This document shows, piece after piece, positions 379-8,189 of a stretch of 8,189 bases of DNA; the stretch's first letter is position 1; every line of letters begins with the position of its first letter. Source of the stretch: an uncultured Verrucomicrobiota bacterium (GTDB lineage: Bacteria; Verrucomicrobiota; Verrucomicrobiae; Opitutales; Opitutaceae); the NCBI GenBank assembly GCA_946481225.1, contig CAMLNJ010000112.1:1-8189 (forward strand). The letters run 5' to 3'. Under the pieces are notes generated by a model, which saw only the letters and a list, made by a program, of their open reading frames with translations, made no database searches and was not told the DNA's origin. Position numbers and translations under genes: made by a program.

Positions 379-525
379 TCAGATACGGAGGAGCCAGCGT
401 AGGACGGGCTCGGCGGCGAGGCCGGCGAGGAGGCTCAACGGAATGAGCAACCGGGCGAGGCGGAGGGCGCGGGCGGGTTCGGGGAGGTGGCGGGCGAGCG
501 AGGGGAACGCGGAGTGGAGGTCCAT
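379..525 (-). CDS. Possible 48-aa single-helix membrane protein
   Basis: This reading frame is the last 48 codons of the long frame above, but it may be a gene of its own. Its ATG (525-523) follows a four-unit TTCA(T/C) array by 23 bases, almost as the exosortase ATG follows its own array (22 bases). The context GGCATGGA around the start is the same in both places. The product begins MDLHSAFPSLARHLPEPARA, then has one hydrophobic helix (about residues 30-46, LLIPLSLLAGLAAEPVLRWL) and a basic end (RI). It would sit in the inner membrane. An alternative ATG lies four codons upstream (537-535), inside the presumed -10 region. There is no Shine-Dalgarno sequence, so a leaderless message would be needed. 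I do not recognise a family. The alternative is that it is simply an unusual C-terminal extension of the upstream protein. Confidence 0.42.
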   Translation of the reverse strand: MDLHSAFPSLARHLPEPARALRLARLLIPLSLLAGLAAEPVLRWLLRI

Positions 526-3500
526 GCCACGGAGCATGCCGGCACGCCGTGAAGCGCGGATGAAGCGGGGGTGAAGTCGGGATGAAAACGCGCGCCTCGC
601 CCGAGGGCGATGGCGCGGGTGGTTTGGGGGTTGTCGGGGCATTGTTGTTATTACTAACTTTGCGGTATGGTGGGAAATTCTGGGGGTGGCGAGGGTGGGG
701 GTGGGGACGCGGTTGCGGCGAGGCAGGTGTCGCAGGGTGATAAAGGCCGCGAAAACGAGCCAGGCTCCGGGGGCGGGTGCTTCCAGGTGATCGAGCGCCT
801 CGTGCTGGCCGAGCTTGCGGGCCTCCGCGGCTTCCAAGGCGCGCCATTGGGCGGAGTTTTCCACGACGATGTAGCTCGCGTCGGCGGTCAGAATGCCGGT
901 TCTTCGCGCTTCGGCGAGCAGATCGGCCAAGCCGTCCGCCGAGGCGTCTCCGGGGGCGCGGGCGCGATCTTGTTGGCGAAGTTGCAGGGCGAGGCCGGCG
1001 GGCCAGGGGGCGTCGGCCGGCTCGGCGTGGTCCGAGATCCCGGCGACGGGGCGCCAGGCGGCGGAAAGCGCGTCCCAATATTCCAAGGGCGCGTTCGTCG
1101 TCGCGGAGGGAAAGCGCGGAATGCGTCCCGTGACGAGCGGACGAAGCGCGGCGCCCAGGCGGAGCAGGGGCGTGTCGGCAGGGGCGGGTGAGCAGGTGTC
1201 GAAAGAGCCGTCGGCGCCGAGGGCGTGGAGCTCGAGGCCGGGCAGAAGATCGGCCCAGGCCCGGGCGAGCGGGAGATCGGGCACGGCGGGCAGGCGGGCG
1301 CGGGCGCCGAGGACGATGAACACGGGGCGGGGCGGAAGGCGGCGGCCGTCGCGGGGGGCGTCCAAATCGGCTCTTTGATGGTGGCGGATGGCGTGGGCGA
1401 GCGCGGCGTCGAGGTTGAGGCCGCCGCCGGGCGGGAGCGCGTCGTCGATTTCGGGGGCGGGGATGCGGGCTACGGTGTCGAGCGGGACGAGCTCGGGCAC
1501 GAGCGGAACGACGTCGAGGTTGACGAGGCTGATCCGGGCGGACTCGGCCGAGGGAAAGCGGAGGCGGAGGCTTTGGATGGCGGTTGCGAGGTCGCCGTGG
1601 AAGGCGTTGGCCTCGGTGCGGTCGACGAGCAGGTGGAGGTAGGCCGGACGGCGGGCGGCGGGGAGCCGGGCGGTTTCGAGGCCGGTGGCGAGCACGGCAT
1701 CGGAAGCGGGGCGGACAAGCCGGGCGTCGGGCGGGGCGAGCGCGGCCAGGGCGGCGCCCGGGTCGCGGGCGAAGTCGCCCGGGGACGACGGAAGGGACGC
1801 GGCGGACGCGGGGACGAGGAAATCGATCTCCACGCGGGAGGGAGTGTCGTGAGCGACCGGATACACGCGGAGTTCGAGTTCGTCGGGCCGGTTGAAAAAG
1901 AGGAGGCCCGGGTCGCGGCGTTCGGTGTCGCGGATCATGGTATAGACCCAGAGGGCGGTTTTCTTTTCCACGATACGGCCAGGCATCGGGACGCCGCCGA
2001 CGTGGAGGCGAAAGCCGCGGACGAGCACGCCGGGCGGCAGGGGAAGGCGGCGGATGTATTCGGCGCCGGCCGGGTCGGGGTTGGAGAGGGTGAGCGCGAG
2101 GGTGGTGGAGCTGGTGGCCTCGGTGAGCGGGCGGACGACGAGGTCGAGGGCCGAGACTTCGACGCGGCGGGGCGGCGGGGTGGCGCGCGGCATGGAGTGC
2201 CGGCGGGCGTTGGATTGAAAGAATCCGGCCGATTTGCGAGAGGCCGCGCCGCCGACTTTTCCTGCGAACAGCATCTCGAGGTGTTCGAGTTTGGCGTCGG
2301 GCAAGACGAGTCCGTCGAAGACGAGGCCGGCGTAGGCCTCGGAGATGATGGGGTAATAGCGGCCCTCCTTGTAGTCGCGCTGCGCGGCGAGGGCGTGGAC
2401 GACGTGGCGGCGGTCGCCGGAGAAAGCGGGGGCGCGGTTGGAGATCGCGGGGGTGTAGGCGTAGTCGAGGGCGGCGTTGAGCGCGGAGCGGTCAGCGAGC
2501 GCGCGGGCGACAAAGGCGGCGGGGATGAAGGCCACGCCCGCCGCGATCAAGGCGGCGATCCGGACGGGCCGCAGGCCGGAGGCGGAGGCGAGGCGGGCCG
2601 CGCGCCAGAGCAGATGAAGATGCAGGGCGAAGAGAAGGGTCGGCGCCAGGATCAGGAAGCCGGCGCCGAACGCGATCACGGCCAGGATGGCGAGTGGCAG
2701 GTAGGGCAGGAATAGCGTGAAAAAGTAGAGCGCGAAGGGGAAGGTGAGCGCGAGGATCGGCAGGGCGACGAGAGGCCGGCGCGGGAGCAGGAAGGAGCCG
2801 GCGAGGAGCAGGACGCCGTTGAGGACGGTGAGCAGGTAGACCTCCTTCGCCTGGAGATCGACGGGGAAGGGGATGGAGGTGTTGAGCGCGAGCCCGCCCA
2901 GCGGAAGGACCAGCGCGGCCACGACGATGGCGATGCGCTCGGCGGTTCCGCCGCCGCGGGCGGCGGCGCGGAGAACGAGGAGCATCGCCCGGACGAGGCA
3001 GGCGAACATGACGACGCCTCCTGCGACGACCAGCGTGGCGACGACGACCCCGTCCACGCGATGCGCTTGGCGAAGCGCGAAGACGAGCTGCGCCCCGAGA
3101 TACACGAGGAGCGGCGCGCCGACGGCGGCGGCCAGATTCTTCGCGATGGCGCGTCCGCCCGCCACCGGCGCGCCCGCGCAGGCGAGGCGGAGCAGCGCGT
3201 GGAAGAGCGGCACCATCGCGAAGGTGAACTGGTGGAGGAAATACCGAGTTTCCGGATAGATCCACGCGTTGGCTCCGTTGCGCGACAGAAGCGAAGAGGA
3301 GCATTCCACGGCGGCCCAGAGGTAGGCGACGTGAACGCCCAGCGCGGGCAGGGCCCACCAGGCTTGCCGTGTCGCGCCGGTTCCGAGTCTTCGTTCGCGG
3401 CGGCGGGCCCGGAAGAACAGGCCGAGAGAGAGGAGCAGACCGCCTAGAAGGATGGCGCCGAGGAGCGCGGCGGCGCGTTGGCCGGCGGGATCGAGAATGC

Positions 3501-3687
3501 CTTCGATCAGGTGATAGGCGTGGAGATTGAGCGCGAGCAGCACGCAGACCGGCAGGGCCCAGAACCACAGAAAGGAGGAGGGGCCGGTGAAGAGCGGCGG
3601 GAGGAGGCCGGAAGCCTCCGGAGGCGGATTGGACGGCGGCGCCGCGGGGGCGATTTTAGCCGCGGGAACGGGAGCAAGGGTGGTCAT
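379..3687 (-). CDS. MSEP-CTERM-like protein: multi-helix membrane part, VIT domain, vWA-like domain, exosortase tail
   Basis: The open frame is 1102 residues. Residues 39-397 hold about eleven membrane helices. Residues 505-625 look like a VIT (vault/inter-alpha-trypsin) domain, with GRIVEKKTALWVYTMIRD followed by RDPGLL and ELRVYPV. Residues 680-820 resemble a von Willebrand A fold (YLHLLVDRTEA), but the metal-site DxSxS is D-R-T-E-A. Residues 930-965 (ADASYIVVENSAQWRALE) match the usual end of VIT-vWA proteins. Residues 969-993 form an exosortase tail: EAPAPGAW, a short hydrophobic run, then RHLPRRNR. This order is that of MSEP-CTERM proteins, the dedicated substrates of exosortase K, and the gene overlaps the exosortase by 32 bases, implying translational coupling. 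The roughly 109 residues after 993 look like read-through of noncoding DNA: they translate a promoter-like repeat array. Three tandem stops (656-648) sit in the +1 frame, so the true end is probably near 650. The start at 3687 has no Shine-Dalgarno sequence. Confidence 0.85.
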   Translation of the reverse strand: MTTLAPVPAAKIAPAAPPSNPPPEASGLLPPLFTGPSSFLWFWALPVCVLLALNLHAYHLIEGILDPAGQRAAALLGAILLGGLLLSLGLFFRARRRERRLGTGATRQAWWALPALGVHVAYLWAAVECSSSLLSRNGANAWIYPETRYFLHQFTFAMVPLFHALLRLACAGAPVAGGRAIAKNLAAAVGAPLLVYLGAQLVFALRQAHRVDGVVVATLVVAGGVVMFACLVRAMLLVLRAAARGGGTAERIAIVVAALVLPLGGLALNTSIPFPVDLQAKEVYLLTVLNGVLLLAGSFLLPRRPLVALPILALTFPFALYFFTLFLPYLPLAILAVIAFGAGFLILAPTLLFALHLHLLWRAARLASASGLRPVRIAALIAAGVAFIPAAFVARALADRSALNAALDYAYTPAISNRAPAFSGDRRHVVHALAAQRDYKEGRYYPIISEAYAGLVFDGLVLPDAKLEHLEMLFAGKVGGAASRKSAGFFQSNARRHSMPRATPPPRRVEVSALDLVVRPLTEATSSTTLALTLSNPDPAGAEYIRRLPLPPGVLVRGFRLHVGGVPMPGRIVEKKTALWVYTMIRDTERRDPGLLFFNRPDELELRVYPVAHDTPSRVEIDFLVPASAASLPSSPGDFARDPGAALAALAPPDARLVRPASDAVLATGLETARLPAARRPAYLHLLVDRTEANAFHGDLATAIQSLRLRFPSAESARISLVNLDVVPLVPELVPLDTVARIPAPEIDDALPPGGGLNLDAALAHAIRHHQRADLDAPRDGRRLPPRPVFIVLGARARLPAVPDLPLARAWADLLPGLELHALGADGSFDTCSPAPADTPLLRLGAALRPLVTGRIPRFPSATTNAPLEYWDALSAAWRPVAGISDHAEPADAPWPAGLALQLRQQDRARAPGDASADGLADLLAEARRTGILTADASYIVVENSAQWRALEAAEARKLGQHEALDHLEAPAPGAWLVFAAFITLRHLPRRNRVPTPTLATPRISHHTAKLVITTMPRQPPNHPRHRPRARRAFSSRLHPRFIRASRRAGMLRGMDLHSAFPSLARHLPEPARALRLARLLIPLSLLAGLAAEPVLRWLLRI
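549..586 (-). promoter_or_regulatory. cre-tag-like array of four 11-bp direct repeats (distal copy)
   Basis: On the minus strand four pentamers occur with an exact 11-base period: TTCAT (586-582), TTCAC (575-571), TTCAT (564-560), TTCAC (553-549). This is the geometry of the CreB cre-tag (TTCAC, six bases, TTCAC) and of tandem sites for OmpR/PhoB-type regulators in general. Ten bases beyond the last unit is a weak -10-like hexamer CATGCT (538-533), and seven bases further the ATG at 525. The array lies inside the 3' part of the long open frame, which supports the view that this part of the frame is not really protein-coding. Confidence 0.7.
648..656 (-). other. Three tandem stop codons in the +1 frame, the likely true end of the MSEP-CTERM-like gene
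   Basis: Reading the minus strand from 656, the bases are TAG TAA TAA, one base out of phase with the long frame. They follow a C-run-rich stretch (about 665-701, with C4 and C5 runs) that is prone to indels in sequencing or replication. The sorting tail ends at about codon 993, roughly 17 codons earlier. A single extra base in this stretch, or a programmed +1 shift, would make this the natural stop. Confidence 0.5.
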
Positions 3688-4183
3688 GTTTTTGAAGGAC
3701 GAGATCCACGGCGAGCAGCGCCGGGAGAAAGACGACTACGCCGGCGAGCAGGTGGAGAAAGTCGCCGTAAGCGGGCGAGAACCTCGGGATGATCCAGCGG
3801 TGGGCCTCGATCACGACGGCGATGCGCAGGGCGTTGATCGCGAGGGTAAGCGGGACGGCGAGCGCGACGGCTTGAAGAGCGACCACGGGGACGCCGCGGC
3901 GGGCGCGGCCGAGACGCCAGGCGAGCAAGGGCGCGAGCAGCGTGAAGTAGTCGATGGCGGAGCAGGCGCGCGTGACGAGGACAGGGCGCGACCACGAGGC
4001 GTCGCGGAGCATCCAGCCGTCGGGCGTCGCGTGCAGGGGGATTCCGATGAGGAGTTTTAAGATCCAGGCCGCGCCGCCGGAGAAGAGGCGAAAGGTGGCG
4101 TCGGGAGCGAAGGATGCGAGCGCCAGAGCCGCGGCCAAGGCGAGGGCGGCGGCGAGGAACGGGCGGGCGTGGTCGCGATCCAT
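3656..4183 (-). CDS. xrtK: Exosortase, XrtK type
   Basis: A 175-residue membrane protein of the exosortase/archaeosortase family, the cysteine transpeptidase-like enzymes that process proteins bearing a C-terminal sorting tail at the periplasmic face of the inner membrane. The three family residues are visible: Cys74 in TRACSAIDYF, Arg120 in AINALRIA and His144 in GDFLHLLAG, each at the edge of a hydrophobic helix. Helices are seen at about 8-26, 35-50, 76-90, 97-115 and 143-163. The protein is short compared with EpsH-type exosortases (about 280 residues or more), as expected for the compact XrtK class. That class is known to pair with one MSEP-CTERM protein encoded next door, which is the arrangement here: the last 32 bases overlap the partner gene. 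The ATG at 4183 is preceded by a four-unit CreB-like operator and no ribosome binding site, so the message may be leaderless. The subclass assignment rests on size and neighbour. Confidence 0.87.
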   Translation of the reverse strand: MDRDHARPFLAAALALAAALALASFAPDATFRLFSGGAAWILKLLIGIPLHATPDGWMLRDASWSRPVLVTRACSAIDYFTLLAPLLAWRLGRARRGVPVVALQAVALAVPLTLAINALRIAVVIEAHRWIIPRFSPAYGDFLHLLAGVVVFLPALLAVDLVLQKHDHPCSRSRG

Positions 4184-4205
4184 GCCCCGAGCCTGCCGCG
4201 CGGGC

Positions 4206-4243
4206 GTGAAGCGAAGATGAAGCGGGGATGAAGTCGGGATGAA
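4206..4243 (-). promoter_or_regulatory. cre-tag-like array of four 11-bp direct repeats upstream of the exosortase
   Basis: On the minus strand: TTCAT (4243-4239), TTCAT (4232-4228), TTCAT (4221-4217), TTCAC (4210-4206), with an exact 11-base period. The spacers between units are also similar to those of the copy at 549-586 (first spacer CCCGAC in both). A weak -10-like CAGGCT lies at 4195-4190, ten bases from the last unit, the same distance as in the other copy, and the exosortase ATG follows six bases later. A response regulator of the OmpR/CreB class binding one face of the helix here would contact RNA polymerase as in PhoB-type activated promoters. The presence of creB and creC on the same strand makes CreB the prime candidate. 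Confidence 0.75.
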
Positions 4244-4455: not shown

Positions 4456-5091
4456 TCAGGGGTGCCACGAGGCCGGGCGGCCGGGCGGGCGGGTTTGCTC
4501 CGGCGGCGGGCCTTTGGTTCTTTGGCGAGCGCCGTCGCCGGTGGAGGGAAGCGTCGGGAGCGAGAGGAAATCGGCGGCATCGAGCAAGGCGATCGCCTCG
4601 CGCGGGTCCTTCGTTTTGCCGGCGGCGTCGCGGAGCAGGGGGATGGCTTCCGGGAGGCTTTTTTGCACCATGCCTTCGCGCGCGAAGGCGCGCAGTTCGG
4701 GATCGGCGTGCGTAAGGTAGGAGGCGAGCAGGGAAAGGGATTCGGGGCCGGCCGTGGCGATGGCGGTTTCGATCCGCGCGAGTTCGCTTTCGCGCGCGGA
4801 TGCGGCCGGTGCCCGAGGCGAGGGCGAGGGGACGGCGGGAGATGTGGCGATGGAGGCTGAGGGCGCTTTCGTCGCTTCGGACGCGGCGGCGCCCGGCGGA
4901 GGCGGAGCGGCCTGCGCGGACGTGGACGCGGGTGCCGACACAGGCGGCGAAGCGGAGGCGGACTCCGTGCGGGGCGTGGAGTCGGGCGGGGCGGAGGGCG
5001 TGCGTGAAGCTTCGGGCCCGAAGAGGACGATGATGGCGGCGCCGAGGATCAGAAGCGCCGAGAGTGCGGCGAGGAATCGGGGTGTCGGCAT
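4456..5091 (-). CDS. Membrane-anchored protein with Pro/Ala/Ser linker and HEAT-like domain, function unknown
   Basis: A 211-residue protein. Residues 6-25 form one hydrophobic helix (LAALSALLILGAAIIVLF) with little positive charge before it, so it is either an uncleaved anchor or a signal sequence. Residues 28-99 are a low-complexity linker of Ala, Pro, Ser and Thr with almost no charge. Residues 101-175 are predicted helical, with HEAT-repeat character: paired helices and the motif HADPELRAFAREGM, then PEAIPLLRDAAGKTKDPREAIALLDAA. The last 30 residues are basic and Pro-rich. The architecture suggests a helical adaptor held away from the membrane, on the periplasmic side if the topology is N-in. 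No Shine-Dalgarno sequence precedes the ATG (5091-5089). The hairpin upstream separates it from the preceding gene, so it probably has its own promoter. I recognise no named family. Confidence 0.72.
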   Translation of the reverse strand: MPTPRFLAALSALLILGAAIIVLFGPEASRTPSAPPDSTPRTESASASPPVSAPASTSAQAAPPPPGAAASEATKAPSASIATSPAVPSPSPRAPAASARESELARIETAIATAGPESLSLLASYLTHADPELRAFAREGMVQKSLPEAIPLLRDAAGKTKDPREAIALLDAADFLSLPTLPSTGDGARQRTKGPPPEQTRPPGRPASWHP

Positions 5092-5191: not shown

Positions 5192-6322
5192 TTAGTCGCT
5201 TACGGGCGTGTAGGATTCGATGATCGCGTCCTTGAGCCAGGCGAGTTCGGTGGGGATCGCGTTTAGATAAGACTCGATGTCGGTGACCGTCTTGGTGGCG
5301 AAGATCGAGAAGCCTCCGGTGGCGAGGCCATAGGTGTCATAGTAGTCACCGTTCCAGTCGCCTTGGAAATGGCCGGAGCTGGCGGAGGCGGGGAGGGATG
5401 CGGCGGCGACGACGTAGAGGTCGTTGCCCTCGTCGGCGTCGTTGAAGGTCTGGAGCTTGCCGCTGAAGGAGAGCAGGCCGTTGAAGGAATACGAAAAGCC
5501 GCTGCGGATGGTTTCCTCGGCCACGGCGTCGTAATAGCTCGGGAAGACGTTCACGTAGGCGCTCATTTTGCCGGAGAAGGAATCGCTCAGCTTGGTTGTG
5601 CCTTCATCGTCGAACTCCCACGTCGTGCCGCCTTCGCCATCGGAGACCCGAGTGTGGTTGTAGGTCGTGGTCTCCTTGTAGGTGTAGGCCTCGATTCCGT
5701 CGTTGAGGTAAAGGAAGAGCGCGTCGCGCGAGGTGGGGGAGTAGTTGTTGGGGCCCGGGCCGAAGTCGCTGGCCTGGCGTCCGACGTAGTGGATGGTGGT
5801 GCCGGCGGCGTTCTCGACGAAAAAGAGGGCCGGAGGCGTCTCTTCGCTCTCGGGACGCTCGGCGGGGAAGATGACGACGAGCCGGAAGTCGGAGGGCTTG
5901 GCGAGCGTGACGTATTCGCGGTCGTTAAGCGCTTTGATGAAATCGGCGTTGGCCCATTTTTGGGTATGCAGCTTGGTCGATTCCTCGATGACCTCTTTGA
6001 TGGGATGGATGTCCGTTTCCGAGCTGGAATCGAAGTCCTTAACCGTCGTGGTTCTTTTCTGGACGTAGTAGTTGGAGTTGGTCCCGTCCGCATCGAAGCC
6101 GGGAGGATTCATGATCCACTCCGGGTCGTATTCGATCGAGACCGTGGGGGAGGGGTTGGTCTCGACCTTGTCATCTTTGACGAGGAAGCCGCCGATCTCG
6201 CTCATGGCGTTGAGGGTCAGGGTCACGGAGCCCTTGACGCCTTGGTAGGCGGCGAAGGCGGGGGTGAGGGAAGCGGCGCCGAGGAGCAGCGCCGCGAGGG
6301 ACGTCGTGGATCGAAGTTTCAT
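5192..6322 (-). CDS. Secreted protein of unknown function with signal peptide
   Basis: A 376-residue protein from the ATG at 6322. The N-terminus MKLRSTTSLAALLLGAASLT followed by PAFA-AY is a classical Sec signal peptide with an Ala-x-Ala cleavage site near residue 24. A GTG 20 codons upstream (6382) is in frame but would bury this signal, so I chose the ATG. The mature part is acidic, rich in Tyr, Thr, Ser and Asp, and has alternating hydrophobic residues suggestive of beta structure. It contains no Cys and no obvious catalytic motif, and it lacks an exosortase tail or a C-terminal anchor, so it is probably periplasmic or released. Its base composition is noticeably less GC-skewed than the neighbours. 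It follows the sensor kinase by 133 bases on the same strand and ends in a strong hairpin. I do not recognise a family. Confidence 0.8.
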   Translation of the reverse strand: MKLRSTTSLAALLLGAASLTPAFAAYQGVKGSVTLTLNAMSEIGGFLVKDDKVETNPSPTVSIEYDPEWIMNPPGFDADGTNSNYYVQKRTTTVKDFDSSSETDIHPIKEVIEESTKLHTQKWANADFIKALNDREYVTLAKPSDFRLVVIFPAERPESEETPPALFFVENAAGTTIHYVGRQASDFGPGPNNYSPTSRDALFLYLNDGIEAYTYKETTTYNHTRVSDGEGGTTWEFDDEGTTKLSDSFSGKMSAYVNVFPSYYDAVAEETIRSGFSYSFNGLLSFSGKLQTFNDADEGNDLYVVAAASLPASASSGHFQGDWNGDYYDTYGLATGGFSIFATKTVTDIESYLNAIPTELAWLKDAIIESYTPVSD

Positions 6323-6455: not shown

Positions 6456-7907
6456 TCAGCCGGATGTGGGTCCGGCCAGGGTAAGCGTGGCGCGCGTGCC
6501 GCCGGCGGGGCGGTTTTCCAGGCGGGCATCGCCGCCGTGGAGGTGGGCGACCTCGCGCACGAAGCTGAGGCCGAGGCCGGTGCTTTTGACTCCGGTGTCG
6601 GGGCGTGGCAGCGAGTAGAAGCGTTCGAAGAGGCGCGGCAGCGCGTAGTCGGGCAGGCCGGGGCCGGTGTCGTCGACGGTGACGATGGCGCCGTCGGGGG
6701 CGGCGCGAAGCGAGAGCGTGATGGAGCCGCCGGCGGGGGTGAATTCGAGGGCGTTTTGGAGGAGGTTGCCGATCGCCTGCGCGAGCAGGAAGCGCTCGCC
6801 GGCGACGGTGATCGCCTCGGGCGCGTCGAGCGCGCCGGAGATTCGTCGGGTGCGTAGCATCGGCTCGAGGGCGGCGAGGCGTTCCTCGAGGAGGGCGCGG
6901 AGCTCGACGGGGGCGGGATCGACGAGGCCGCGGCGGGCCTCGACGGCGGCGAGTTGAAGGAGTTTTTCGACGATGGTCTGGATGCGCGCCGACTCGGTGA
7001 GGAGGTTTTGCAGGAAGCGGGCGCGCTGGGGCGCGGGCATCTCGGCGTCCTCGGCGAGGAGCTCGGCGGCGCCGCGGATGGCGGCGAGGGGGGCCTTGAT
7101 CTCGTGGGCGAGGGCCTGGGTGTATCGCTCGACGTGGGCTTTCCCTTCCAGGGCGGCGCGCATCTCGTCGAAGGCGCGGCGGAGCTCGCCGACCTCGCGG
7201 CCGGCGAAACGCTTCGGGAGCGAGGCGGGGCGGCCGTCGCGCACGGCGCGGGCGTAGGCGGTGAGTTTTTCGACCGGCGTGGTGATCCAGAGGGAGAAGG
7301 CGAGGCCGGTGACGATGACGAGGCCGCCGCCGAGCGCGCCGGCGGCGAGGACCTTGGTGCGGACGGCGGCGACGAGGGCGTTGATGTTGGCGGTGGGTTT
7401 GCCGAGTGAGACGACGCCGACGACGCGATCATCGTGACGGATAGGCGCGGCGACGTGGACGACGAGCGAGGCTTCGTCGGCGGGGTCGAGGCGGGTGGCG
7501 CGCGCGCCGTAGCGGCCTTGGAGGGTGAGGAGGACGTCGTTCCAGCGGGAGTAGTCGCGGCCTTCGTCGCGGCCGCCGTCGGAGTCGTAGAGCACGCGGC
7601 CGGCGGCGTCGGTGAGGTAGAGGCGAAGGTCGACGGCGGTCTTGTGAAAGGTGTAGATCCGGGCGTCGAGCGGGCGCGTGGCGGCGGCGTCGAAGGCGCG
7701 GCGCAACGGGGCGATGTCGAGCGTGGCGTCGGGGCGGACATGGGTCTCGGCGACGGCGGCGAGGTAGGCGGCGGTGTCGATGAGCGTGGCCTCCATCGAT
7801 TCGAGGTAGCGCGGCCGGATGGCGCCGAGGATGGAGGTGAAGAGGTAGAGGTAGCCGCCGCCGATCAACAACAGGTAGACGAGGAAGATGCGGGTGCGGA
7901 TGGTCAT
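6456..7907 (-). CDS. creC: CreC-like sensor histidine kinase
   Basis: A 483-residue inner-membrane kinase. TM1 is at about residues 7-29, a periplasmic sensor region spans 30-187, TM2 is at about 188-209, and a HAMP linker runs over 210-257. The dimerisation/phosphoacceptor helix has His268 (ALAHEIKAPLAAIRGAAELL). The ATPase domain shows the N box (GNLLQNALEFTP, Asn385), the G1 box DDTGPG (413-417), the F box LFERFYSLPR and the G2 box STGLGLSFV (442-450). The sensor region matches Escherichia coli CreC as I recall it (TLIDTA near the start, then DYSRWNDVLLTLQGRYGA, DPAD and VAAPI...GVVSLGKP), which identifies the subfamily rather than just a generic kinase. It should phosphorylate the CreB-like regulator encoded immediately upstream. 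The intergenic gap is 75 bases, and no Shine-Dalgarno sequence precedes the ATG. The usual creD is not downstream. Confidence 0.9.
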   Translation of the reverse strand: MTIRTRIFLVYLLLIGGGYLYLFTSILGAIRPRYLESMEATLIDTAAYLAAVAETHVRPDATLDIAPLRRAFDAAATRPLDARIYTFHKTAVDLRLYLTDAAGRVLYDSDGGRDEGRDYSRWNDVLLTLQGRYGARATRLDPADEASLVVHVAAPIRHDDRVVGVVSLGKPTANINALVAAVRTKVLAAGALGGGLVIVTGLAFSLWITTPVEKLTAYARAVRDGRPASLPKRFAGREVGELRRAFDEMRAALEGKAHVERYTQALAHEIKAPLAAIRGAAELLAEDAEMPAPQRARFLQNLLTESARIQTIVEKLLQLAAVEARRGLVDPAPVELRALLEERLAALEPMLRTRRISGALDAPEAITVAGERFLLAQAIGNLLQNALEFTPAGGSITLSLRAAPDGAIVTVDDTGPGLPDYALPRLFERFYSLPRPDTGVKSTGLGLSFVREVAHLHGGDARLENRPAGGTRATLTLAGPTSG

Positions 7908-7982: not shown

Positions 7983-8189
7983 TTATTCGCGCAGCGAGTA
8001 GCCGAGGCCGCGGTGGGTGACGATGGGGTCGGTGTTGTCGGGGGCGAGGGCGCGGAGTTTGGCGCGGAGGGTTTTCACGTGGGCGTCGACGGTGCGGTCC
8101 AGGCTGGCCTCGGGTTCGTCCCACGCGGAGGTGAGAAGCTGCTCGCGGTTGAAGACGCGGCCGGGCTGGCCGAGGAACGTTTTTAACAG
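7983..8189 (-). CDS. creB: CreB-like response regulator, C-terminal DNA-binding domain (partial)
   Basis: The window holds the last 68 codons, ending at TAA 7985-7983; the receiver domain and the start lie beyond base 8189. The visible part is an OmpR/PhoB-type winged helix. It includes QPGRVFNREQLL, then SAWDEPEASLDRTVDAHVKT with the recognition helix (LDRTVDAHVKTLRAKLR), and the terminal wing THRGLGYSLRE. It aligns closely with E. coli CreB as I recall it (LLKT...PGRV, DRTVD.H.KTLRAKLRA, THRG.GYSLR). Conservation of the recognition helix supports recognition of a site like the enterobacterial cre-tag. Two arrays with that spacing are found in this window, upstream of the exosortase and of a short frame. 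Confidence 0.88.
   Translation of the reverse strand: MLKTFLGQPGRVFNREQLLTSAWDEPEASLDRTVDAHVKTLRAKLRALAPDNTDPIVTHRGLGYSLRE

Follow-up and report, generated by a model that had tools for sequence, protein, structure and literature searches.

A tandem array of TTCAY units located upstream of an XrtK-like exosortase gene is likely a CreB operator (we put the probability at about 0.8). It would form the upstream part of the promoter shared by this gene and the MSEP-CTERM gene (MSEP) that follows it, within a CreBC envelope regulon. The window, the whole 8,189-nucleotide stretch of DNA analysed here, contains two such arrays (Table 1). Array 1 reads TTCAT-6-TTCAT-6-TTCAT-6-TTCAC on the minus strand, which confirms the initial annotation of a four-unit TTCA(T/C) array with an exact 11-base period directly before the exosortase start. 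Array 1 is far above chance. The pattern TTCAY-N6-TTCAY occurs six times in the window, three times in each array, and 200 dinucleotide shuffles of the window gave a mean of 0.01 occurrences and a maximum of 1.

Table 1. Features of the window discussed in the text
Feature	Position	Strand	Remark
Array 1, proposed CreB operator (four TTCAY units, 11-bp period)	4206..4243	(-)	upstream of xrtK
-10-like hexamer CAGGCT (NANNNT)	4190..4195	(-)	exactly 10 bp past array 1; rule from 82 other arrays
XrtK-like exosortase gene	3656..4183	(-)	ATG 22 bp past array 1; leaderless by prediction
MSEP-CTERM protein ORF	379..3687	(-)	overlaps 3' end of xrtK
Array 2, second four-unit TTCAY array	549..586	(-)	downstream of MSEP; absent from the initial annotation
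-10-like hexamer CATGCT	533..538	(-)	exactly 10 bp past array 2
48-aa ORF with hydrophobic stretch	379..525	(-)	ATG 23 bp past array 2
HEAT_2-like protein (weak similarity, below cut-off)	4456..5091	(-)	between xrtK and creC
Secreted protein, putative	5192..6319	(-)	signal-peptide-like start judged by eye
CreC sensor histidine kinase	6456..7907	(-)	NF008312
CreB, C-terminal DNA-binding domain only	7983..8189	(-)	truncated by window edge

The gene order on the minus strand is the creB part, creC, the putative secreted protein, a small protein, array 1, the xrtK-like gene and MSEP. The xrtK-like product passes the exosortase/archaeosortase signature TIGR04178 (33.4 bits, cut-off 23) and falls below the cut-off of the narrower XrtK model TIGR04287 (22.9 bits, cut-off 55). 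We therefore call it XrtK-like rather than XrtK. The MSEP ORF passes the MSEP-CTERM model TIGR04286 with 282.6 bits (cut-off 150). A metagenomic protein, P0009, is identical over 91% of this ORF and stops near 680, while the MSEP ORF stays open for ~100 codons past that stop (window 379-700). The true MSEP C terminus is probably near 680, and the C-terminal end in the window is uncertain. Searches of NCBIfam and Pfam gave no match for the putative secreted protein, and no significant relatives of the 48-aa ORF were found among the fetched loci (best E 0.19).

The placement of a CreB/CreC pair on the same strand 2.3 kb upstream was borne out. The end of creC is 2273 bp from the start of xrtK, and the CreC protein passes its curated model with 553.1 bits (cut-off 356). 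The CreB fragment is 68 residues long and has CreB (NF008296) as its best model; its 90.1 bits are to be read against a cut-off of 273 that is beyond the reach of a fragment of this length. Aligned to E. coli K-12 proteins, the fragment scores 218 with CreB and 75 with ArcA. This part of the protein contains the recognition helix. The proposed similarity to E. coli CreB stands for the DNA-binding domain.

The cre/blr tag is given as TTCAC-N6-TTCAC upstream of creD (PMC4689548), and we read the same sequence in E. coli K-12 at the 3' end of creC, before creD. The claimed match of array 1 to this tag holds for the 11-bp spacing and the TTCA core. Only its last unit is TTCAC, however, and the other three are TTCAT, so the half-sites agree only if T is allowed at the fifth base. 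In Salmonella, CreB is reported to bind a promoter that lacks a typical cre tag (PMC7873081), so the specificity of CreB does not reside in the tag alone.

Arrays and CreC occur together across genomes. Relatives were gathered through MSEP; 80 loci were kept and 45 were extended to whole genomes, 12 of which have CreC over the cut-off. A three-unit pattern was found in 11 of these 12 and in 7 of the other 33, G008 being among the 7. The CreC-positive genome without any three-unit array is G014. When G008 is taken together with the 12, 12 of 13 genomes have the pattern, with 36 matches against 0 for a reversed-pattern control, and the remaining CreC-negative genomes have it in 6 of 32, with 8 matches against 2. 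A larger survey covered 250 genomes from the family of G005 (Opitutaceae bacterium EW11), to which the window itself presumably belongs; CreC-positive was defined here as a match at E 1e-80 or better. Three-unit arrays are present in 97 of 105 CreC-positive and 34 of 145 CreC-negative genomes (Fisher 7.5e-30, a P value that overstates independence because the genomes are related to each other). The survey gave 307 array matches and 11 for the reversed pattern. In 34 of 51 CreC-positive genomes among those listed, an array follows the 3' end of creC within 334 bp, on the same strand. Gaps between creC and array were computed for 36 pairs, of which one has a gap of 1116 bp and one is on opposite strands. 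In the other 15 of the 51, the arrays are distant or on separate contigs.

The CreC-negative genomes with arrays must be explained, be it by gaps in the assemblies, by a CreB that has diverged or by a different regulator of the OmpR family. Such a different regulator could read the same box, alone or alongside CreB, and CreB would then not be its only controller. Such a regulator would account for the 30 of 34 array-positive CreC-negative genomes that have no CreB match at E 1e-66. It would also account for the arrays in 12 CreC-negative genomes (L319-L336) that precede YceI-, CreD-, sulfatase- and VIT-type proteins, families assigned by eye. The strong overall association of arrays with CreC speaks against it, and CreB or a CreB fragment is in fact present in 4 of the 34; one genome counted as CreC-negative, G144 (L331-L334), does hold CreB. 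The draft genomes may also be incomplete, and those with arrays and without CreBC may simply miss the genes. We regard a second reader of the box as unlikely; CreB may still not be the exclusive reader of the arrays.

CreB remains the favoured reader of the array before the exosortase gene, and the arrays recur at this position in relatives. We searched for the best three-unit match within 1.2 kb before MSEP in 13 CreC-positive loci, including the window, and 33 CreC-negative loci. Locus L009 (genome G009), whose contig starts at MSEP, was left out, and G172, found later by the family search, was included. An array with at most one mismatch precedes xrtK or MSEP in 8 of 13 CreC-positive loci (7 of 12 without the window) and in 3 of 33 CreC-negative loci. 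Among the CreC-positive loci, seven including the window have no mismatch, L033 has one, L007 has two, and L014, L017, L018 and L021 have five. In L014, L017 and L018 no array was seen before MSEP, although L018 offers only ~580 bp of upstream sequence. At least four mismatches were found in 30 of the 33 CreC-negative loci, and the three exceptions (L001, L002, L008) are all from genomes of the G005 family. MSEP is rare in this family (11 of 250 genomes over the cut-off), and the sequence upstream of xrtK is readable in 10 of the 11, G009 again being the exception. Conservation of the array before orthologous exosortase genes, the check proposed with the initial annotation, was found in 8 of these 10 genomes, five with an array of three strict units (G004, G005, G008, G044, G172) and three with a degenerate one (G001, G002, G007). 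In G003 and G006, xrtK is not preceded by an array, and neither CreB nor CreC exceeds the cut-off. The comparison of genomes with and without CreC thus favours a link at the level of loci, but three CreC-positive MSEP loci are arrayless, and three genomes (G001, G002, G008) have an array or near-array before xrtK yet no CreB or CreC over the cut-off. Physical linkage was also observed. In L010, creBC adjoins an array-led MSEP. In L021 (4182-12955), creBC is divergent from a run of an array, a gene for a 558-aa protein, a CreD-like gene, an xrtK-like gene and MSEP, the tightest physical link that we saw.

The arrays are also found before creD, the classical CreB target. A match to PF06123 (creD) is present in 7 of 19 genomes, and an array lies directly before creD in 5 of the 7. 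In a sixth (G021), the array precedes a gene run that contains creD, and for creD of G035 no array was seen in the 4-kb stretch read. Because the arrays precede creD, their identity as CreB sites is supported independently of the exosortase. The listed CreC-positive genomes other than G004 and G005 contain at least 91 arrays, of which 82 were read; a downstream ORF was obtained for 78 of these. Among the 78 proteins, CreD is the most frequent family (27), followed by VIT (6), sulfatase (4), YceI (4), DUF3142 (3), PMT_2 (3) and others; the ORFs were chosen mechanically, and the frame is probably wrong in some cases. The array-linked proteins of the CreC-positive MSEP genomes include CreD, VIT/VWA, sulfatase, YceI, DUF4153 and metallophosphoesterase, and two of the VIT/VWA proteins have PEP-CTERM matches just under the cut-off. 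A small membrane protein of ~177-204 aa with an LLVPLVAMQF-like motif recurs after arrays in L261, L262, L264, L269, L273, L274, L279, L282, L283, L289 and L292.

In relatives, these promoters also stand before creD and before envelope genes of the VIT, YceI, sulfatase and mannosyltransferase types, which contradicts the earlier idea of a CreBC system reserved for the exosortase and its one substrate. CreBC probably regulates the envelope more widely, with the sorting system as one of its targets rather than the only one.

The array could instead be a PHO box read by PhoB/PhoP. The PHO box of Streptomyces coelicolor, to which an OmpR-family regulator binds, is made of direct repeats of 11 nt with a GTTCACC core (PMC4415409), a word nearly identical to the one found here and with the same period. 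PhoB is also the second-best model for the CreB fragment of the window (47.1 bits), and a CreB/PhoB-like regulator below the cut-off is present in 18 of 19 genomes tested. The arrays follow CreC and precede creD, however, and no classical Pho transport or phosphatase family, judged by names, is among the array-linked Pfam families. None of 11 pstB stretches from 10 family genomes (G001 gave no pstB match) has a strict array of at least two units or a three-unit array with at most two mismatches; this control is one-sided, as the PHO box of these bacteria was itself not found. The E. coli-type word TGTCA at a period of 11 gave a single match, in L233. With 11 pst stretches lacking the arrays, we rejected the PHO box reading, which appears highly improbable.

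The CreB reading gains further detail from the spacing of the arrays relative to downstream elements. Once a fixed geometry had been noticed, it was tested on a set of 82 arrays taken from further CreC-positive genomes (L239-L318, L337, L338). A hexamer of the form NANNNT starts exactly 10 bp past the array in 71 of the 82, compared with a mean of 2.9% at other offsets. The second A and the last T are the best conserved bases of the -10 element, and NANNNT keeps both. An ATG is located at +21 to +25 in 63 of the 82 arrays, most often at +22, and a simple pattern for a Shine-Dalgarno-like word matched in only 1 of these 63. Four of the 82 arrays were first lengthened by one unit with one mismatch. 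Three units are present in 58 arrays and four in 24, the search itself having demanded three units, with two-unit sites outside the survey; the fifth base of the units is T in 64%. The stereotyped order is therefore a TTCAY array, 10 bp, NANNNT, ~6 bp and ATG, with a Shine-Dalgarno word being rare. Both arrays of the window, which are outside the 82, obey this rule, with CAGGCT and an ATG at +22 for array 1 and CATGCT and an ATG at +23 for array 2. CAGGCT is GC-rich. The hexamer at +10 is present in all 8 family xrtK upstream sequences with an array or near-array, and the geometry is kept in xrtK promoters of relatives even though their fourth unit has 1 to 3 mismatches. In CreC-negative genomes, the hexamer is present in 12 of 18 arrays from 12 genomes (9 of 14 without the CreB-holding G144). 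L010 and L039 are more distant; there the start codon is at +41 and +51 from the third unit and the hexamer at +10 was not seen as aligned, so the layout may belong to one family.

The geometry bears on whether array 1 could be a chance or purely local tandem repeat with no regulatory role. Its units resemble each other, and so do the two arrays of the window, a picture that local duplication could yield. Between genomes, however, the spacers vary, whereas the TTCAY units are constant, as are the +10 hexamer and the distance to the start codon, and the reversed pattern was rarer than the array in all three counts given above. We consider a role-less repeat next to impossible.

The hexamer lies as far from the ATG as a -10 element usually lies from the transcription start, and for this reason we predict that the arrays head activator-dependent leaderless promoters. 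In PhoB promoters, the PHO box replaces the -35 element. We propose that phosphorylated CreB likewise binds the TTCAY half-sites, which follow each other in tandem at one per turn of the helix, and that bound CreB substitutes for the -35 element and activates transcription. RNA polymerase would then use the NANNNT hexamer exactly 10 bp downstream of the array, and transcription would start at or beside the ATG of xrtK, so that the xrtK-MSEP mRNA would be leaderless and translated as such. The xrtK-MSEP operon would belong to a CreBC envelope regulon, whose further members in the family of G005 would be creD and genes of the VIT, YceI-like, sulfatase and mannosyltransferase types. That CreB controls the exosortase operon, as proposed in the initial annotation, thus has good comparative support from the co-occurrence with CreC, the arrays before creD, the recurrence before xrtK, the linkage of creBC to MSEP in L010 and L021 and the fixed geometry, but the link is not universal.

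We lean, with some reserve, towards a broader view in which CreBC of this verrucomicrobial family broadly governs both the cell envelope and protein sorting. It would act through a stereotyped promoter, in which TTCAY units replace the -35 element, the -10 element follows at exactly 10 bp and transcription starts at the start codon, and most of the regulon, the exosortase included, would be leaderless. In the open-licence literature, we found no description of the control of the XrtK/MSEP-CTERM pair or of an exosortase coupled with CreB, and little on CreBC outside Proteobacteria. The operator and promoter layout could allow targets to be predicted in any genome of the group. It would connect an envelope regulator with an orphan exosortase-substrate pair, and it predicts a set of leaderless transcripts.

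The system described here resembles the CreBC/BlrAB regulon of E. coli, Aeromonas and others in its half-site, 11-bp spacing, regulator family and a tag near the creC-creD junction (PMC4689548). It differs in the three- or four-unit arrays, the frequent T at the fifth base, the fixed +10 hexamer, the predicted leaderless start and the exosortase operon among the targets. In Proteobacteria, PrsK/PrsR control of PEP-CTERM genes also joins a two-component system to exosortase sorting through a common upstream motif, although PrsR is an NtrC-like sigma-54 activator usually encoded near exopolysaccharide genes, while CreB is of the OmpR family and has a tandem-repeat site (PMC1569441, PMC9850573). 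The histidine kinase and response regulator of the proteobacterial dedicated sortase system (TIGR03785, TIGR03787) are likewise two-component proteins named for one sorting system. The target of that system is a VIT-domain protein. Its regulators are of other families, with the window CreC scoring 112.6 against a cut-off of 612.2 and the CreB fragment 24.4 against 335.7.
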